Shown here: in pieces, positions 1 through 5,246 of the stretch
Position numbering within the stretch: position 1 is the stretch's first letter
Layout of the letters: each line of letters starts with the position of its first letter
NCBI GenBank assembly: GCA_021789095.1
Contig: JAJYJX010000129.1
Coordinates: forward strand, 1 to 6,629
DNA length: 6,629 bases
From: a bacterium
GTDB taxonomy: Bacteria > JAMCPX01
Direction of reading: 5' to 3'
Position numbers and translations under genes: made by a program
Notes under the pieces: model-generated
Databases searched by the model: none
Seen by the model: only the letters and a program-made list of their open reading frames with translations
Told to the model about the DNA's origin: nothing

Positions 1-199
1 TGTGCAGGGACAAAGCCGTGTAGTATAGTCTTGTTTCTTGCCCGATATCTGCCATACAGAAAGGTTTGTAACACCCCTTGAAATAGCGGTTACCATAAGC
101 TGGTGGTTATTTATTACTTTTACACTTGCTATTGTCGCATCGCCAATAGCAACTTTCGATATATCGCGTAATTCCACTACACGGCTTTGTCCCTGCACA
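1..199. repeat. 24-bp perfect inverted repeat: window start versus inside cpaC
   Basis: Bases 1-24 are the exact reverse complement of bases 176-199, with the next pair (25 and 175) mismatched. The inner copy encodes the conserved VQGQSRVV part of the secretin N-domain. The outer copy ends exactly at the window boundary and gives residues that do not suit the domain. This fits a fold-back at a contig end better than a biological repeat, although a real inverted repeat cannot be excluded. Confidence 0.85.
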
Positions 200-420
200 A
201 GAGAGATGATGGTTTGGTCTGCATGTGCGGAGGATATTATCAATAAAAAAGGCACTACGCTCAAAAAGTTTATTAAGCTGGTTGGCTTTGGAATACTCCT
301 TATCCTTTTCTTTTTTTTGTCATTCTGAACTTGTTTCAGAATCTGATTCTTCATCAATAGATATAGATGCTGAAATAAATTCGGCATGACATGTTTTGAC
401 TTTTGATTCAGATTTTTCAT
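1..420 (-). CDS. cpaC: CpaC/RcpA-type secretin of the Tad pilus, 3' end cut by window edge
   Basis: This is the N-terminal part (140 codons) of the outer-membrane secretin through which the Flp pilus leaves the cell. The chosen ATG overlaps the cpaB stop (ATGA) and follows a GGTGGAG ribosome-binding sequence; in-frame ATGs at codons 12 and 23 have none. Residues 11-34 are encoded by a palindromic repeat, followed by a Lys/Arg-rich stretch (35-41), a hydrophobic signal-peptide core (about 47-64) and a likely signal peptidase site after SSAHA (residue 67). Residues 70-132 match the pilus-formation N-terminal domain of CpaC/RcpA secretins, including the LVQGQSRVVEL motif and a GVTNLSVW motif. 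The secretin barrel itself lies beyond the edge. The last 8 codons (bases 1-24) are an exact reverse copy of bases 176-199 and give an unlikely CPC ending, so they may be an assembly artefact. Family assignment is strong. Confidence 0.88.
   Translation of the reverse strand, partial: MKNLNQKSKHVMPNLFQHLYLLMKNQILKQVQNDKKKKRIRSIPKPTSLINFLSVVPFLLIISSAHADQTIISLVQGQSRVVELRDISKVAIGDATIASVKVINNHQLMVTAISRGVTNLSVWQISGKKQDYTTRLCPCT
319..390. repeat. 72-bp palindromic dispersed repeat, in frame in the cpaC leader
   Basis: The two 26-base ends (319-344 and 365-390) are imperfect inverted repeats, starting GTCATTCTGAACTTG and ending ATTCGGCATGAC, around a 20-base centre. The sequence resembles a widespread family of short dispersed palindromes whose translation typically contains LFQHL and ILKQVQ, as it does here. 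The length is 24 codons. On the cpaC strand the frame used is free of stops, while the other two same-strand frames both contain a stop. The element encodes cpaC residues 11-34, ahead of the signal-peptide core. Confidence 0.82.
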
Positions 421-1205
421 TCTCCACCCTTGCCTTTTATTACCCTGATATTTCGTTCGTGCTGGATTTGTTTGAGATTGCCGATTTTCATAATATCCTC
501 CCATCCAACAAGCGGCAGGTTTTCTTCTGTTTGTATATTATCTGCATTTCTCAAGACAAAATTTAACCTTGCCCTTTCCGATGCAAAAGTAAGCAGTTCT
601 GATTCTACAGGCGATACGGCAAGCGTAAGACTATTGTAGCTATATGGCTCCGATTCCTGTAGTCCTCTGCCCCATATACCGCCTGTTGCGAGTACGGTAA
701 CATTTTGAAGGAGCGTAATGGTGGCAAGCTTTGTTGCACCTGAAGTCGATGGAAATGAGAATGTTCCGAGCATGTCAACATGGTCACCCGGCCTTATCAA
801 GCCTGACACGCTGCTCTGGTTATCAACTGCAATGGATATTGCCCTTTCGCTTTCTTTTATCAGGGATGTAAATCCGGAACCTTTTGCAGCGCCGAGCATT
901 GTCCATTGAAGCGGCTCCCCTTTATCTATCTGCATAACAGCTCTGTGCCCTATGACAGCATCTCGATCCTGTTGCTGGATTGTGTTGTGTGAAAGGTATC
1001 TTTTGGGTTGCGGTATTGATGTCAGACTATCTTTTATAATAATTGAACCAGGCTTTATATTTGTTTTTGCTACAAGTACATCCACTGTCTCAAGCTCACT
1101 GTAAACAGAGTGTCTGAATGCGGCAAGATAAAGCTGGAGCAGTATGATTGCAATCACACCACTCCCTATGCCTATGATCAACTTCCTATTTCTATCAAGT
1201 TTCAT
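417..1205 (-). CDS. cpaB: Flp pilus assembly protein CpaB/RcpC
   Basis: This is a 262-residue CpaB/RcpC homologue, a periplasmic protein of Tad pilus systems thought to act with the secretin. A single membrane anchor spans about residues 9-29. An SAF-type domain follows at about 40-105, with VDVLVAKTNIKPGSII and a VIGHRAVMQIDKGEPL stretch. The C-terminal RcpC/CpaB domain covers about 118-225, with ERAISIAVD, the typical GLIRPGDHVDML motif and a SLTLAVSPVESELLTFASE segment. Length is normal for the family. The start is fixed by a GGAGG that overlaps the stop codon of the upstream small gene. The stop overlaps the cpaC ATG, so the two are probably translationally coupled. I see no defects. Confidence 0.95.
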   Translation of the reverse strand: MKLDRNRKLIIGIGSGVIAIILLQLYLAAFRHSVYSELETVDVLVAKTNIKPGSIIIKDSLTSIPQPKRYLSHNTIQQQDRDAVIGHRAVMQIDKGEPLQWTMLGAAKGSGFTSLIKESERAISIAVDNQSSVSGLIRPGDHVDMLGTFSFPSTSGATKLATITLLQNVTVLATGGIWGRGLQESEPYSYNSLTLAVSPVESELLTFASERARLNFVLRNADNIQTEENLPLVGWEDIMKIGNLKQIQHERNIRVIKGKGGE

Positions 1206-1209
1206 AATG

Positions 1210-1214
1210 CCTCC
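1210..1214 (-). promoter_or_regulatory. Ribosome-binding site of cpaB, overlapping the upstream stop codon
   Basis: On the minus strand GGAGG lies four bases before the cpaB ATG. Its first G is the last base of the TAG stop of the 52-residue gene, so ribosomes ending there sit directly on the cpaB start region. Confidence 0.8.
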
Positions 1215-1372
1215 TATGGGATCGGCAGGGATATAAACGCGATAAGGAATCCAAAATAATTGCTCATTGCATATCCGAGCATCTTCACTGCGATGCCGAT
1301 GCTGAGGGCAAGTACCATTGTCACAATGAGATATTCGACCATGGTCTGGCCTTTATTACTGTTTGACTGCAT
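1214..1372 (-). CDS. Small Flp-type pilin or pseudopilin, 52 residues
   Basis: This short gene encodes 52 residues. A hydrophilic 8-residue leader (MQSNSNKG) precedes QTMVEYLIV, giving a class of prepilin peptidase site in which G8 is followed by Glu at +5 and Tyr at +6, as in Flp pilins. One hydrophobic helix fills about residues 12-35, and the peptide ends in SLPIP. Mature length would be 44. Its start overlaps the end of the upstream gene by 17 bases and it has no convincing ribosome-binding sequence, so translation is probably coupled. Its stop feeds the cpaB ribosome-binding site. It could be a second or minor pilin, or a pseudopilin used for initiation; the sequence does not decide. The leader motif, helix and operon position make it very likely to be a real gene. 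Confidence 0.85.
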   Translation of the reverse strand: MQSNSNKGQTMVEYLIVTMVLALSIGIAVKMLGYAMSNYFGFLIAFISLPIP

Positions 1373-2057
1373 AAGTAATAATCGAGACATACCCTGCCTC
1401 TTTTTCCTCTACATCCAATAAAAACAGCCGTGCTCCTGACTGATATAATGTTAAACCGTGCTCTCCATGCACCTTTTTATAGTTTTCTGACTGGAGCCTT
1501 GAATCATAATAAAGCCTTACTGCATCCGGAGTTGCCTCTGCCTTATAATGACCTATTGAGAATTTCGTCGTCTGGATGGTATTAATTTTTACAGCGGCTG
1601 GATAAACGGGAAGGTCTTCTGAGTCATATACGCTTTCATCCAAAAACTTGTTTATATCAAACCCCTTATCAAGCTTTAAACCTACATATTTGACAGAGTG
1701 GCTATTATTAGCAAAACTCATTAAAGGCTCTATCATTGACATCAATGTTACCGGCGATGTTGCCTTTTGCCTGTCGATACTCCCATTGAAGTGAACCGCA
1801 AGCCCGCCATTTTTATCACGGTAAAACGGCAGGGATTTATTATTGCGCGCCATTGAAAGCAAGGCGCCGTCATCTTCCTGATTTCCGATAAGCATATCCA
1901 TACTCTGCCCATTTACTTTAAAATGCAGCGTTTTGTGGGGTATATTGTCCAGTATGCCTTCCGAAGAAAACAGGTCGTATACGGTACTTTTACTTTTGGA
2001 TATGAAAAATAAAAGAAGCATCAGAGAGATTAAAATAGCTAATGTGATATGTTTCAT
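1356..2057 (-). CDS. Unrecognised membrane-anchored protein in the Tad operon
   Basis: I do not recognise this 233-residue protein. It begins with a hydrophobic segment (about residues 4-20, ITLAILISLMLLLFFIS) followed by Lys/Ser, consistent with an inner-membrane anchor or uncleaved signal and a periplasmic body. The C-terminal third has PVYPAAV (150-156), then a YKAEATPDAVRLYYDSRL stretch (171-188) and a final hydrophobic-strand ending. This resembles small alpha/beta domains with a YP..A start and a TPD..R.YY helix found in various exported proteins, but I cannot name a family. The ATG at 2057, 17 bases after the tadE stop, is preferred to an in-frame TTG at 2108 that would overlap tadE and put an odd extension before the anchor. 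The ribosome-binding sequence is weak. Its place between pseudopilin genes and cpaB suggests a role in pilus assembly (inference). Confidence 0.75.
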   Translation of the reverse strand: MKHITLAILISLMLLLFFISKSKSTVYDLFSSEGILDNIPHKTLHFKVNGQSMDMLIGNQEDDGALLSMARNNKSLPFYRDKNGGLAVHFNGSIDRQKATSPVTLMSMIEPLMSFANNSHSVKYVGLKLDKGFDINKFLDESVYDSEDLPVYPAAVKINTIQTTKFSIGHYKAEATPDAVRLYYDSRLQSENYKKVHGEHGLTLYQSGARLFLLDVEEKEAGYVSIITYAVKQ

Positions 2058-2073
2058 ATGACTTTTACCCACT

Positions 2074-2742
2074 TTAATTACCAGTAATAGATGGGTTTTC
2101 GAGATCAATGCTTGTGCTGCTTCCTTTGAATGCTTTGGCTACTGCAATAGCCCAGAGTCCATACTTGAGCGCCTGTCCGATACTGCTGCTTCCCTTCCAT
2201 GTAGCCATAAATACAAAGTGCTGTGCGCCTGTATGAGCTGTTTTAGATGAAAAAGGATAGTTATAGCAGGATACATCAATAGCAGTGCCCTTTATACCTG
2301 CCGCTTCTCCCAATACAGCTCCAATATCTTCTAGTGAATAGCCTGCAAATCCAACCTTTGGTTCAGGATGGCTTATGCTTATATGAGAGGTTTGATTGAA
2401 GAACAAACTTTTTAATATATCTGCTGATGGTTCATTTTCTTCGTGTCTGCCTGCATACCATGCAACATATCTTACTGCTGTAACTGTACGCTGTTTCAAA
2501 ACGAGTAGTCTTGCAAAAAAGATTACACTGCTAAGCATTAGCAACAATACAGGGAATATAATTATAAATTCTGTGGCGGACTGACCTATTACTGCCAACC
2601 CCTTTGTGTCATTCCCGTGTATACGGGAATCCAGTAAAGCTATTTGTGAATAAGTCTGGATTCCCACTTTCGTGGGAATGACAGAGGAAGACTGCCCATC
2701 TTTTGTTTTTTTCTTTTTTTCAATGCAATATAAGTTTATCAT
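2074..2742 (-). CDS. TadE-like pseudopilin (second copy) with a repeat-derived leader
   Basis: This 222-residue TadE-like protein has G53 followed by QSATEF, a prepilin-peptidase-type site with Glu at +5, and a hydrophobic helix at about 59-80 (IIIFPVLLLMLSSVIFFARL). The VLKQRTVTAVRYVAWYAGR stretch after it is typical of TadE proteins. The rest is a periplasmic domain with one Cys (159). The leader is unusually long (53 residues). Residues 21-45 are encoded by a 75-bp palindromic repeat, preceded by a Lys-rich run from an A-rich tract. The ATG overlaps the tadG end by 23 bases and has only a weak ribosome-binding sequence. An in-frame TTG just after the repeat is the only nearby alternative and has poor spacing, so the exact start is less certain than the gene. 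After cleavage the mature protein would be about 169 residues, normal for TadE. Confidence 0.83.
   Translation of the reverse strand: MINLYCIEKKKKTKDGQSSSVIPTKVGIQTYSQIALLDSRIHGNDTKGLAVIGQSATEFIIIFPVLLLMLSSVIFFARLLVLKQRTVTAVRYVAWYAGRHEENEPSADILKSLFFNQTSHISISHPEPKVGFAGYSLEDIGAVLGEAAGIKGTAIDVSCYNYPFSSKTAHTGAQHFVFMATWKGSSSIGQALKYGLWAIAVAKAFKGSSTSIDLENPSITGN
2608..2682. repeat. 75-bp double-hairpin palindromic dispersed repeat inside tadE
   Basis: The arms at 2608-2634 (GTCATTCCCGTG to GGAATCCAG) and 2656-2682 (CTGGATTCCCAC to GGGAATGAC) are inverted copies, and each arm has its own internal palindrome (ATTCCCG with CGGGAAT; ATTCCCAC with GTGGGAAT). This is a REP/BIME-like family found in many bacteria, recognisable by translations such as VIPTKVGIQ and LDSRIHGND, both present here. 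It is 25 codons long. On the gene strand only the frame used by tadE is free of stops. It encodes residues 21-45, upstream of the predicted peptidase cut. Confidence 0.9.
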
Positions 2743-4177
2743 CTATCCATTTGATTACGCTATTGGTCGATTTCAGTCCGAGTTGTTCTGCAATGGCCTT
2801 CAAAGCTGTGAACTTTATAAGATGTGCGTCCCAGTCCATTTCAAATAGTATGTCTCCCGGTTTTGTACTCGGGCTTTGCGGCTTTGCCTGAGAAAGTGCA
2901 AGAAAACCCCAAGGGTTTTGATCTTCGGAAAGTAAATTTCTATTGTTTATAAACACCGGGGATCTTTTTTTGCCGAGATCCGTTGCTGCAACCGCCATGT
3001 AAAGAAATTCATCCGATCTTGGATGAAGCTTCATCGGAACAGGCAGTTCTGAAGGCGGGCTTGTTTTGGTAGTTGTTTCTACTGACAGATCGAGTTTACA
3101 GAATACCTCTTCTTTAAGAGGAACGGATATAACACCTCCTGCGTTAGCCCCTGATCCTCCTGTGCAGTCTTTCGGGATACAATCAACAAAACCAGATTTT
3201 TTATCTTCCGGCGGTTCTGTACTGCGTGACCATGGTATCTTATTGCAAAGACTCTGACTTTTAATGCTTGTTGAGCAATTATTGCATGGATCCGGGACAC
3301 TGTAGATCGTTGTAGTATAAAACCATCCCGCATCGACCTTTTTTGTACTCGTAATATCTGTAGCTGACCCAGCAGGTTTGTTTGCTTTGTTATTGGCATC
3401 TACGGCCTGGGTATAATTATCGTAGCTGTGGCTATCTTTAAATGTTGTTGATATAGCCCCGCTTGATGAAAGCGAATTGAGATCTATTGATTTGCCAAGC
3501 AAACCCAAAGCCTCCGATAAGAGAGGGAAGATCTTATCAAGTGTTTTGCTAAGATCCTCCATAATAGCCTTAATCAGGTCTTGGAACCCACCTTTATCAA
3601 CATTCAATGAAATTGTCTGCGGTGTAAGCGGAGGAGGTACACTACCGGAAGGTTGATACGGGTATGGAATGGATACAGGGCTATGTGTGTTTGCTCCGCT
3701 TGCAAGCTCTACAGCGACAGGGATCATATAAGGGAAGATCTTTGCTATTTTTTTCTCAAGATTCGACATCTCTACAGCGGTATTCCATAAGCGTCGTATC
3801 GCATTATTCGCAAAATTCAGAACAACAGGGAGTGCAGTAGCACATGCTTCGCCAATGCCAGCCCACCATAAAGTGCCTGCACATACACCTAATATAGCAA
3901 TGGCTGCTACTACGATCACAATTAATTCAACAGAGAGGACAATGCCTTGATTCAATCCGGCGATAAGGTTTAGTCCCCGAGCCTCCCATACAGCGCCTGC
4001 CATGGATGCACTGTCAGCAGTGTTCTGCATCTCCATCTTGTATGAAAGTTCCCTGCCAACATTAATAACCGAAGCAACAAATATGATCAATGTGATAAGC
4101 GTGATCACAACAAAAACTATTGCCTGCCCCTGCTCCTTATTATTCCTATACCGTAGTGCCTTTATACTCACGGGCAT
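2720..4177 (-). CDS. TadG-like Flp pilus assembly protein
   Basis: This 485-residue protein matches the TadE/G-like N-terminal domain. A GQAIVFVVITLITLIIFVAS membrane segment (about 17-36) is followed by NVGRELSYKMEMQNTADSAS and the MAGAVWEARGLN motif, typical of TadG proteins. Unlike its neighbours it lacks Glu at +5 after the Gly, so prepilin-peptidase cleavage is doubtful. A second hydrophobic stretch spans about 79-100. The large C-terminal part looks periplasmic, with a Pro-rich linker (about 164-190) and six Cys at 298, 301, 311, 333, 338 and 360 (CNNC, then C..C pairs), suggesting disulphides. I see no von Willebrand A metal-binding DxSxS motif, which many TadG proteins carry. The ATG overlaps the end of the upstream tadE by 10 bases with an AGGA close before it. 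It belongs to the pilus operon. Confidence 0.85.
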   Translation of the reverse strand: MPVSIKALRYRNNKEQGQAIVFVVITLITLIIFVASVINVGRELSYKMEMQNTADSASMAGAVWEARGLNLIAGLNQGIVLSVELIVIVVAAIAILGVCAGTLWWAGIGEACATALPVVLNFANNAIRRLWNTAVEMSNLEKKIAKIFPYMIPVAVELASGANTHSPVSIPYPYQPSGSVPPPLTPQTISLNVDKGGFQDLIKAIMEDLSKTLDKIFPLLSEALGLLGKSIDLNSLSSSGAISTTFKDSHSYDNYTQAVDANNKANKPAGSATDITSTKKVDAGWFYTTTIYSVPDPCNNCSTSIKSQSLCNKIPWSRSTEPPEDKKSGFVDCIPKDCTGGSGANAGGVISVPLKEEVFCKLDLSVETTTKTSPPSELPVPMKLHPRSDEFLYMAVAATDLGKKRSPVFINNRNLLSEDQNPWGFLALSQAKPQSPSTKPGDILFEMDWDAHLIKFTALKAIAEQLGLKSTNSVIKWIDDKLILH

Positions 4178-5016
4178 TCCTGCCGGACAATTCTGCTTAT
4201 GCCAGTTTGGTTTTTATCAGTATGATATTGTGGTTTGCTATTTTTGTATGTGCCGGATTGATATACTTCATCATTTGTATATGTATGCTTTACACCATTA
4301 TTATCGATGTAGGTGTAAACACATTTAGACGGATCTGCCGGGGGCGGTTCATTAAGTGCCTCTACAGTAAGCGTTTCTTCAGAAGATAATGGATAGAAAT
4401 AGTCAGTGCCCATAATTGACGAAATGGTGCTTATCCATCCATTATCAGCACCCGTGTAATTGGAAAGTATGCTTAAAATGCCGGAACTCCCTGTGCCTAT
4501 TATTTTGTTAATAATGGGGATTGTAAGCAGGGCAAGATAATCAATATGCACTGTAATATCATCGTTAGATTGTGATGGATTTGTTACAACCTTTACATCT
4601 GTAAATTGCTTTGCATAGACATATCGCAGTAGTAATGTGCTTGCATCTCCAAACATGTTGGCAATATTATTCACAGCACCCGAAACAATGGATATTCCTG
4701 ACATCGCATCTATACGCGGGGAGATTGGGGTCATTGATAATTTTGCAGATTCAGAAATATCATCAGGATTATCAGGTTGGACAATTGCCACACGAGCCGC
4801 ATTGAATGCTGCGTATTCAACAAAGAGTTTTGTTTGTGCGAGTAGCGACAATTGTACGATTGCAAGTACAGTGATCAGCACAAGAGGGAACGCAATCAAA
4901 AACTCCACCATTGCCTGACCCGAAGAAACGCATTTCTTGTCCGTTCCATTTTGCGGGGTTACAAGGGCAGGGGCGAGCCCTGCCCCTACAGGATTTTTTC
5001 GGCTGAACCTGTTCAT
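4168..5016 (-). CDS. Large TadE-like pseudopilin with a repeat-derived leader
   Basis: This 282-residue protein has a leader ending in SSG (G33) followed by QAMVEF, a prepilin-peptidase site with Glu at +5. A hydrophobic helix follows (about 39-60, LIAFPLVLITVLAIVQLSLL), then KLFVEYAAFNAARVAIVQ, the hallmark of TadE family proteins. The C-terminal domain is longer than in typical TadE proteins, which are usually under 200 residues. It contains two late Cys (232 and 281) that could pair. The start is fixed by an ATGA overlap with the flp stop. Residues 10-20 (VGAGLAPALVT) come from a short GC-rich palindromic repeat in the leader, so they should be lost on processing. It is the first pseudopilin gene after the major pilin and ends inside the tadG start. 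Confidence 0.88.
   Translation of the reverse strand: MNRFSRKNPVGAGLAPALVTPQNGTDKKCVSSGQAMVEFLIAFPLVLITVLAIVQLSLLAQTKLFVEYAAFNAARVAIVQPDNPDDISESAKLSMTPISPRIDAMSGISIVSGAVNNIANMFGDASTLLLRYVYAKQFTDVKVVTNPSQSNDDITVHIDYLALLTIPIINKIIGTGSSGILSILSNYTGADNGWISTISSIMGTDYFYPLSSEETLTVEALNEPPPADPSKCVYTYIDNNGVKHTYTNDEVYQSGTYKNSKPQYHTDKNQTGISRIVRQECP
4957..4989. repeat. 33-bp GC-rich palindromic dispersed repeat at the 5' end of tadE
   Basis: GGGCAGGG (4965-4972) pairs perfectly with CCCTGCCC (4978-4985) around a 5-base loop. The sequence and its translation VGAGLAPAL are familiar from a dispersed repeat family in many bacterial genomes. It is 11 codons long, in frame, and encodes residues 10-20 of the large TadE, before the predicted cleavage site. 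It lies 24-56 bases past the flp stop, so on the mRNA it forms a strong hairpin between the pilin and the rest of the operon. Confidence 0.8.
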
Positions 5017-5246
5017 TCTCCCGAGCTTTCTTTGTCTGGTGCGCCCTCATTGCTCTGGTTTGTCACGCTCTCGATCTGCTGGCCCGCGGTCTTTACGCCC
5101 TTGATGAGCTTGTTGCGGAATACGCCGAACACGGCGATGAGGGCGATGGCCACGAGCAGAACGATCAGGATGTACTCTGTCATGCCCTGGCCCTTCTCCT
5201 TTTTATCCGGTCTCTTCGCCCAGCGCTCAAGATTGAAATAAACCAT
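5013..5246 (-). CDS. flp: Major Flp-type pilin
   Basis: This 77-residue gene is first in the operon and encodes a class IVb Flp prepilin. A basic hydrophilic leader (1-19, ending KKEKG) precedes QGMTEY, the Flp motif with Glu +5 and Tyr +6. Then comes a hydrophobic helix (about 26-43, ILIVLLVAIALIAVFGVF). The mature protein would be 58 residues, with a hydrophilic tail rich in Gln, Asn, Ser and Glu. A GGAGG lies four bases before the ATG and a promoter lies upstream. Its codons end mostly in G or C (ATC, CTC, GCC, GGC, AAG, CAG), clearly unlike the AT-rich neighbours. That suits a very highly expressed subunit, though recent transfer is possible. Its stop overlaps the next ATG. Confidence 0.93.
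   Translation of the reverse strand: MVYFNLERWAKRPDKKEKGQGMTEYILIVLLVAIALIAVFGVFRNKLIKGVKTAGQQIESVTNQSNEGAPDKESSGE

Follow-up and report, generated by a model that had tools for sequence, protein, structure and literature searches.

Palindromic repeats of unrelated families recur in frame in the predicted cleaved leaders of Tad pilus and other exported proteins

How can palindromic repeats sit inside three protein-coding genes of a single pilus operon, and why near the 5' end of each? The window (the whole stretch of DNA analysed, a 6629-bp contig, C64, of a 2.15-Mb draft genome from a little-known bacterial group) carries on its minus strand a Tad/Flp pilus operon made of flp, a large tadE, a tadG-like gene, a small tadE, one further gene, a small Flp-like gene, cpaB and the 5' part of cpaC. 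The original prediction placed three different palindromes in frame in the leaders of cpaC, the small tadE and the large tadE, and this is what we find: the elements E1, E2 and E3 (Table 1) all lie in frame within minus-strand open reading frames, each after the start codon and ahead of the mature part. They lie 23-37 nt past the upstream stop codon and their RNA folds are stabler than mononucleotide shuffles (z in Table 1). In all three proteins the recognised domain starts after the repeat, and the pilus-formation N domain of CpaC lies well past the signal peptide.

Table 1. Genes, leaders and elements of the window, and in-frame mid-protein repeats at other loci (locus given with the position); z compares the RNA fold with mononucleotide shuffles
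Feature	Position	Strand	Remarks
cpaC, secretin-type pilus protein, N part (contig end cuts gene)	1..420	-	Pfam T2SS-T3SS_pil_N
cpaC leader, 67 aa, ...IISSAHA^DQ	220-420	-	cleavage predicted
E1, 72-bp head-to-head palindrome with TGTC-tagged half-units, n-region of CpaC signal peptide	319..390	-	open in 1/6 frames; z -3.7
cpaB/rcpC, upstream neighbour of cpaC, without insert	417..1205	-	Pfam RcpC, SAF
small tadE	2074..2742	-	Pfam TadE from residue 53 (of 222), directly after leader
small tadE leader, 53 aa, ...AVIG^QSATEF	2584-2742	-	start position common with G003
E2, 75-bp head-to-head REP dimer, CGTC-1 type, small TadE leader	2608..2682	-	open in 1/6 frames; z -6.4
TadG-like protein, short leader, without insert	2720..4177	-	Pfam Tad
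large tadE	4168..5016	-	Pfam TadE from residue 33 (of 282), directly after leader
large tadE leader, 33 aa, ...VSSG^QAMVEF	4918-5016	-	ATGA overlap with flp
E3, 33-bp GC-rich hairpin (GTAGGGGCAGGG...CCCTGCCC), large TadE leader	~4957..4989, hairpin core 4964-4989	-	z -3.6; same-site homologue in G004
flp pilin, leader without insert	5013..5246	-	weak Flp_Fap match
in-frame repeat, ABC ATPase	L103 (G000:C59) 7297-8409
in-frame repeat, ArnT-like transferase	L122 792-2423
in-frame repeat, IspE	L144 3312-4229
in-frame repeat, CobB-like enzyme	L145 3364-4740
in-frame repeat, restriction enzyme	L178 2926-5937

As predicted, cpaC and the large tadE start upstream of their elements: the cpaC ATG combines an ATGA overlap with cpaB and a GGTGGAG ribosome site, and the ATG of the large tadE likewise overlaps the upstream stop and follows a GGAG-type site. 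The ATG of the small tadE, which the prediction had left open, coincides with the G003 start, both falling within the end of tadG, and one similar context surrounds the starts of G001, G002, G004 and G008. For E1 and E2 the sole open frame of the six is the gene's own, again as foreseen for that strand; E3 is open in 5/6 frames and its open frame therefore says little. The exact insert boundaries are not defined because the flanking leaders at empty sites are too diverged. The last cpaC codons are a reverse repeat of part of the gene and are missing in relatives, and thus the contig end, where positions 1-24 and 176-199 form a perfect 24-bp inverted repeat, is probably an assembly fold-back; the end of cpaC sits at this doubtful contig end.

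The elements had also been described as dispersed. In the window's own genome the E2 half-unit pattern gives 83 matches compared to 0 for a reversed control, E1 is found at a few other places, and the E3 class (GTAGGGGC...GCCCC) gives 21 matches at about 14 places compared to 4 control matches. Dispersal holds for E1, E2 and the E3 class, but by BLAST the window's E3 sequence has no second copy. The multi-copy pattern counts against reversed controls, together with the fold z-scores, rule out chance palindromes.

CGTC-type REPs are defined by a tag, an AT-starting stem of 8-9 bp, a 4-5 nt loop and a CCA-like tail, and they form the families CGTC-1 to -4, of which CGTC-1 corresponds to Neisseria dRS3 and R. 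conorii RPE-6 (PMC3733652). Judged by its sequence, E2 fits this definition: both arms read TGTC-ATTCCC, the CGTC/TGTC tag standing at the head and not belonging to the stem, and the units (TGTC-ATTCCCAC-GAAA-GTGGGAAT-CCAG, and ATTCCCGT-GTAT-ACGGGAAT-CCAG for the other stem, loop and tail) have an 8-bp stem and a 4-nt loop. E2 is also multi-copy, mostly in head-to-head dimers (29 distinct dimers in the DNA sampled), and 83/93 of its places are intergenic; it thus resembles the published CGTC-tagged REPs in dimer form and in being mostly intergenic with some intragenic copies (PMC3733652). E1 is a TGTC-tagged dimer related to E2, with the tag and an 8-bp stem (ATTCTGAA/TTCAGAAT), CTA/CTG tails instead of CCA and a mismatch in the other arm. 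Like GTAG-tagged REPs, E3 starts with GTAG beside a GC-rich hairpin; unlike them (PMC3733652), E3-class copies elsewhere in the genome are symmetric around self-complementary centres that vary (GTAGGGGC...GCCCCTAC), and the tag, unpaired in the window copy, is paired in many of them. Four GTAGGGGC palindromes (G000:C28:8745, C60:192, C148:7119 and C187:13464) share the same ends and have wholly different self-complementary centres, as if these changed by compensatory replacement. Overall the repeats are REP/RPE-like, and the sequences have the RPE-like character of in-frame, stop-free insertions into otherwise conserved genes.

We then compared the leaders with those of eight genomes of the same family, aligning at the leaders those that carry the operon. 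For the large tadE, an E3-like element occupies the same site in G004, a different in-frame GTAGGGGC hairpin is present in G001, and the leader comparison reveals no repeat in G002 (MNHPDLERG^QAMTEF), G003 and G006. For the small tadE, the G001 leader holds a decayed E2-like element (72 vs 75 bp) at the same 21-nt distance to the cleavage-site glycine codon as E2 in the window, G004 and G008 hold an unrelated element (GTCACCCTGAGC...GAATGAC, 60 and 84 bp), and G002 (MNLCNREG^QAFTEF) and G003 have a short plain leader with no repeat. For cpaC, a GGCGATTC hairpin is found in G003 and a GGTCnTATAGGACC-type repeat in G004 and G002, with no repeat in the G001 and G006 leaders compared. Orthologous leaders contain at least six element types, in frame, or none, and are then short and normal; homologues lacking the inserts have short, ordinary leaders, and relatives keep the starts that precede the elements, both in favour of the original prediction. 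The alignments indicate that the same leaders are hit by different in-frame repeats.

These results suggest that selfish-looking repeats land in frame in cleaved leaders and that such leaders are the safest place for them within a gene, in support of the safe landing sites first proposed. We hypothesize, with good confidence, that dispersed palindromes survive in genes mainly where extra residues are harmless, cleaved leaders being one example. Several unrelated palindromic repeat families, mostly REP-like head-to-head dimers, would have spread as mobile elements in these genomes, most copies persisting between genes. A copy inside a gene would persist mainly if the frame is kept, no stop is introduced and the 10-50 added residues are harmless. 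The harmless zone would extend from the start codon to the putative cleavage site. In Sec and lipoprotein signal peptides it would be the n-region, in type IV and Tad prepilins the leader, and it would tolerate changes in length and sequence before being removed from the mature protein. In tight operons such as Tad, the leader would be among the few unconstrained stretches. The repeats would be translated, presumably neutral passengers whose palindrome decays later while the reading frame is kept, and leaders could gather several repeats one after another.

An alternative is that the elements are RNA hairpins kept at gene junctions for tuning translation or mRNA stability of the neighbours, their translation being incidental. 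The short distance of E1, E2 and E3 from the upstream stop and their stable hairpins agree with this, and REPs have been proposed as mRNA-stability elements (PMC3733652). However, the presence and type of element vary among close relatives, several leaders of these genes lack any hairpin element, and two orthologous or same-site copies are without the fold: z is -6.4 for E2 in the window compared to -0.6 for its G001 counterpart (length difference 3 nt), and -3.5 in G004 compared to -0.8 in G008 for the GTCACCCTGAGC element (length difference 24 nt), with the frame still open in both cases and both length differences being multiples of three. Since the hairpin is lost but the frame kept, these two leader copies point to a tolerated translated passenger and not to an RNA switch, and we consider a junction function improbable. 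The same distances could reflect a preference of the repeats to insert just past stop codons, or into a sequence found there, in which case tight operons would turn such sites into the leader of the next gene whether exported or not. REPs do lie near the 3' ends of upstream genes in other genomes (PMC3733652) and operon junctions alone could place some copies. Yet all verifiable N-terminal copies (PilX, porin, beta-propeller, subtilase, RND adaptor and Tad genes) are in exported proteins, while just 32-40 % of the called genes encode a hydrophobic segment at the N-terminus, and the many families sit at differing distances with no obvious common target; at least six element types at different positions argue against a single target sequence. 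A tendency to insert on the 3' side of the preceding gene, known for REPs, may contribute, but is rather unlikely to be the explanation.

Misplaced gene starts, with the elements being 5' untranslated and the true starts downstream, seem highly unlikely for these leaders. Many N-terminal REPs of P. putida and S. maltophilia were judged untranslated and ascribed to likely start errors (PMC3733652), and some copies in the present genomes are 5' untranslated, for example before hslV. Here, however, insert-free relatives share the starts and ribosome sites that precede the elements, the in-frame start codons past E1 lie only inside the hydrophobic core, and E1 and E2 are open in the gene frame only. 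Elsewhere, 60 elements are followed by a called start at a distance of 0-150 nt; only 5 of them (about 8 %) are open and also have a start upstream, and among these five L100, L153 and L182 are leaders of exported proteins. E2 dimers in general have a random length modulo 3 (10/29 divisible) and on average 2.5 of six frames open.

Returning to tolerated passengers in cleaved leaders, we found further cases outside the operon. An element-driven search revealed leader copies in a porin-like protein (G001) and a subtilase (G003). Their orthologues have clean signal peptides of 20-35 aa in part of the genomes and carry different repeats in the rest; among the latter, the porin leader of the window's own genome holds a decayed E2-like element. 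Scanning a 1.2-Mb sample of G001 for long n-regions identified a PilX-like prepilin, a beta-propeller protein with two E3-class hairpins, a lipoprotein and an RND-adaptor lipoprotein. The PilX-like prepilin of G001 has a 76-aa leader containing two elements of about 80 bp and a clear AAGGAG site upstream, and the leader is 8-14 aa in G002, G004 and G005 (G007 was dropped, its upstream sequence being unrelated). The clearest series is provided by the RND-adaptor lipoprotein. Its start context, GAGGTGA..TATG directly after the upstream gene, is kept in 8/9 genomes. G003 has a repeat-free leader of about 30 aa, whereas the leader reaches about 90 aa in G000, where it holds two element types, and about 130 aa in G007, where it holds three.

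To what extent genic copies prefer leaders was estimated from counts in sampled genome regions. About 80-86 % of copies are intergenic overall: gene calling in sampled regions of several genomes gives 118/137, a slightly too high figure as E1 of the window was counted intergenic with the truncated cpaC uncalled, and a profile and pattern scan of half of G001 gives 73/92. In that half, the genuine genic copies read by eye are three in leaders, one in a protein body and two C-terminal (3/6 leader). With n-regions making up 1.8 % of coding DNA, or 4.2 % with the hydrophobic core, the leader excess has a P of about 0.0001 to about 0.001 respectively, and the pooled non-operon genic copies of G000 and G001 (4/11 leader) give P of about 0.0008 at 4.2 %. 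These statistics are supportive only, as the numbers are small, the in-gene cases were partly found by looking at leaders, and gene starts and leaders were called by a home-made model and a hydrophobicity rule instead of SignalP. The 16 'BODY' labels of the G001 scan were read singly. Most are chance matches of only 15-24 nt within conserved proteins, LeuRS and an aminotransferase among them. C71 92659 belongs with the leaders and received the wrong label since its hydrophobic core is placed a few residues later, and C71 95000 sits in a C-terminal tail. A family-free 13-mer repeat scan of G001 was set aside, being dominated by tandem and A/T-rich repeats and missing single leader elements such as E3.

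In-frame copies also survive in the middle of proteins, namely an ABC ATPase, an ArnT-like transferase, IspE, a CobB-like enzyme, a restriction enzyme and an RND pump; genic copies thus occur within cytosolic or membrane enzymes and at C-termini as well. The predicted leader preference is supported: leaders are over-represented among the few genic copies relative to a 2-4 % coding share, and repeats in leaders recur in other exported proteins. Nevertheless, the majority of copies lie between genes, and leaders are the favoured refuge within genes, not the sole one.

Earlier papers describe in-frame palindromes (RPEs), REPs that lie within genes and often near the N-terminus, and a signal peptide formed in part by a MITE (PMC10969869, PMC3733652, PMC2229807). 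Rickettsia palindromic elements (RPE-1 etc.) are in-frame, apparently translated repeats in protein genes of obligate intracellular bacteria, in varied and often metabolic proteins (PMC10969869, PMC2229807), unlike the unrelated families recurring here in exported-protein leaders. The Yersinia palindromic sequence and ERIC are intragenic MITEs, and in the Yersinia fusion YPO1552 a MITE forms part of the predicted signal peptide (PMC2229807), as the repeats do here. In YPO1552 the MITE gives a signal sequence to a putative new protein, whereas the present repeats lengthen the n-region or prepilin leader of conserved proteins which otherwise have normal short leaders. What differs from the CGTC-REPs of PMC3733652 is the recurrent placement in cleaved leaders of orthologues, with upstream starts backed by empty relatives. 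In the openly accessible papers searched, we found no account of unrelated repeats inserting time and again into the cleaved leaders of orthologous exported proteins and no match to the E2-encoded peptides; the recurrent link of repeats to cleaved leaders appears new in the searchable literature.

This link offers a simple testable rule for where translated repeats persist in bacterial genes, each relative with an empty leader serving as a natural control. It would account for the odd, hypervariable and over-long leaders of pilins, lipoproteins and porins, often trimmed by gene callers, and warns against writing off N-terminal REPs as start errors by default. We give roughly even chances to the wider proposal that cleaved leaders are a lineage-wide refuge for translated selfish palindromes, where unrelated families converge, leaders grow stepwise to more than 100 residues and repeats erode into ordinary-looking leader. 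If so, it would be a route for the evolution of leader length and sequence.

Several loci deserve mention in their own right. Y1_Tnp genes are present, and one in G008 (L186, G008:C198, 2484-2558) has two E3-class hairpins inside it, not flanking it, in frame and just past the HLHG motif. In G000 a Y1 (RAYT-like) transposase gene with GGGGTCAGCCCTTGAC inverted ends (L117, G000:C143, 130-1181) is followed a few tens of bases later by an E2-type dimer, and G000:C59 2806-21030 has about 11 E2 places in 18 kb, far denser than the rest of the genome. A prepilin in G001 (G001:C33, 27667-28479) has a 48-aa leader with two GFIPLE/SLIPLE segments, and a CCCGTTAGAAA-type word underlying them ranks with the most frequent repeats in that genome.
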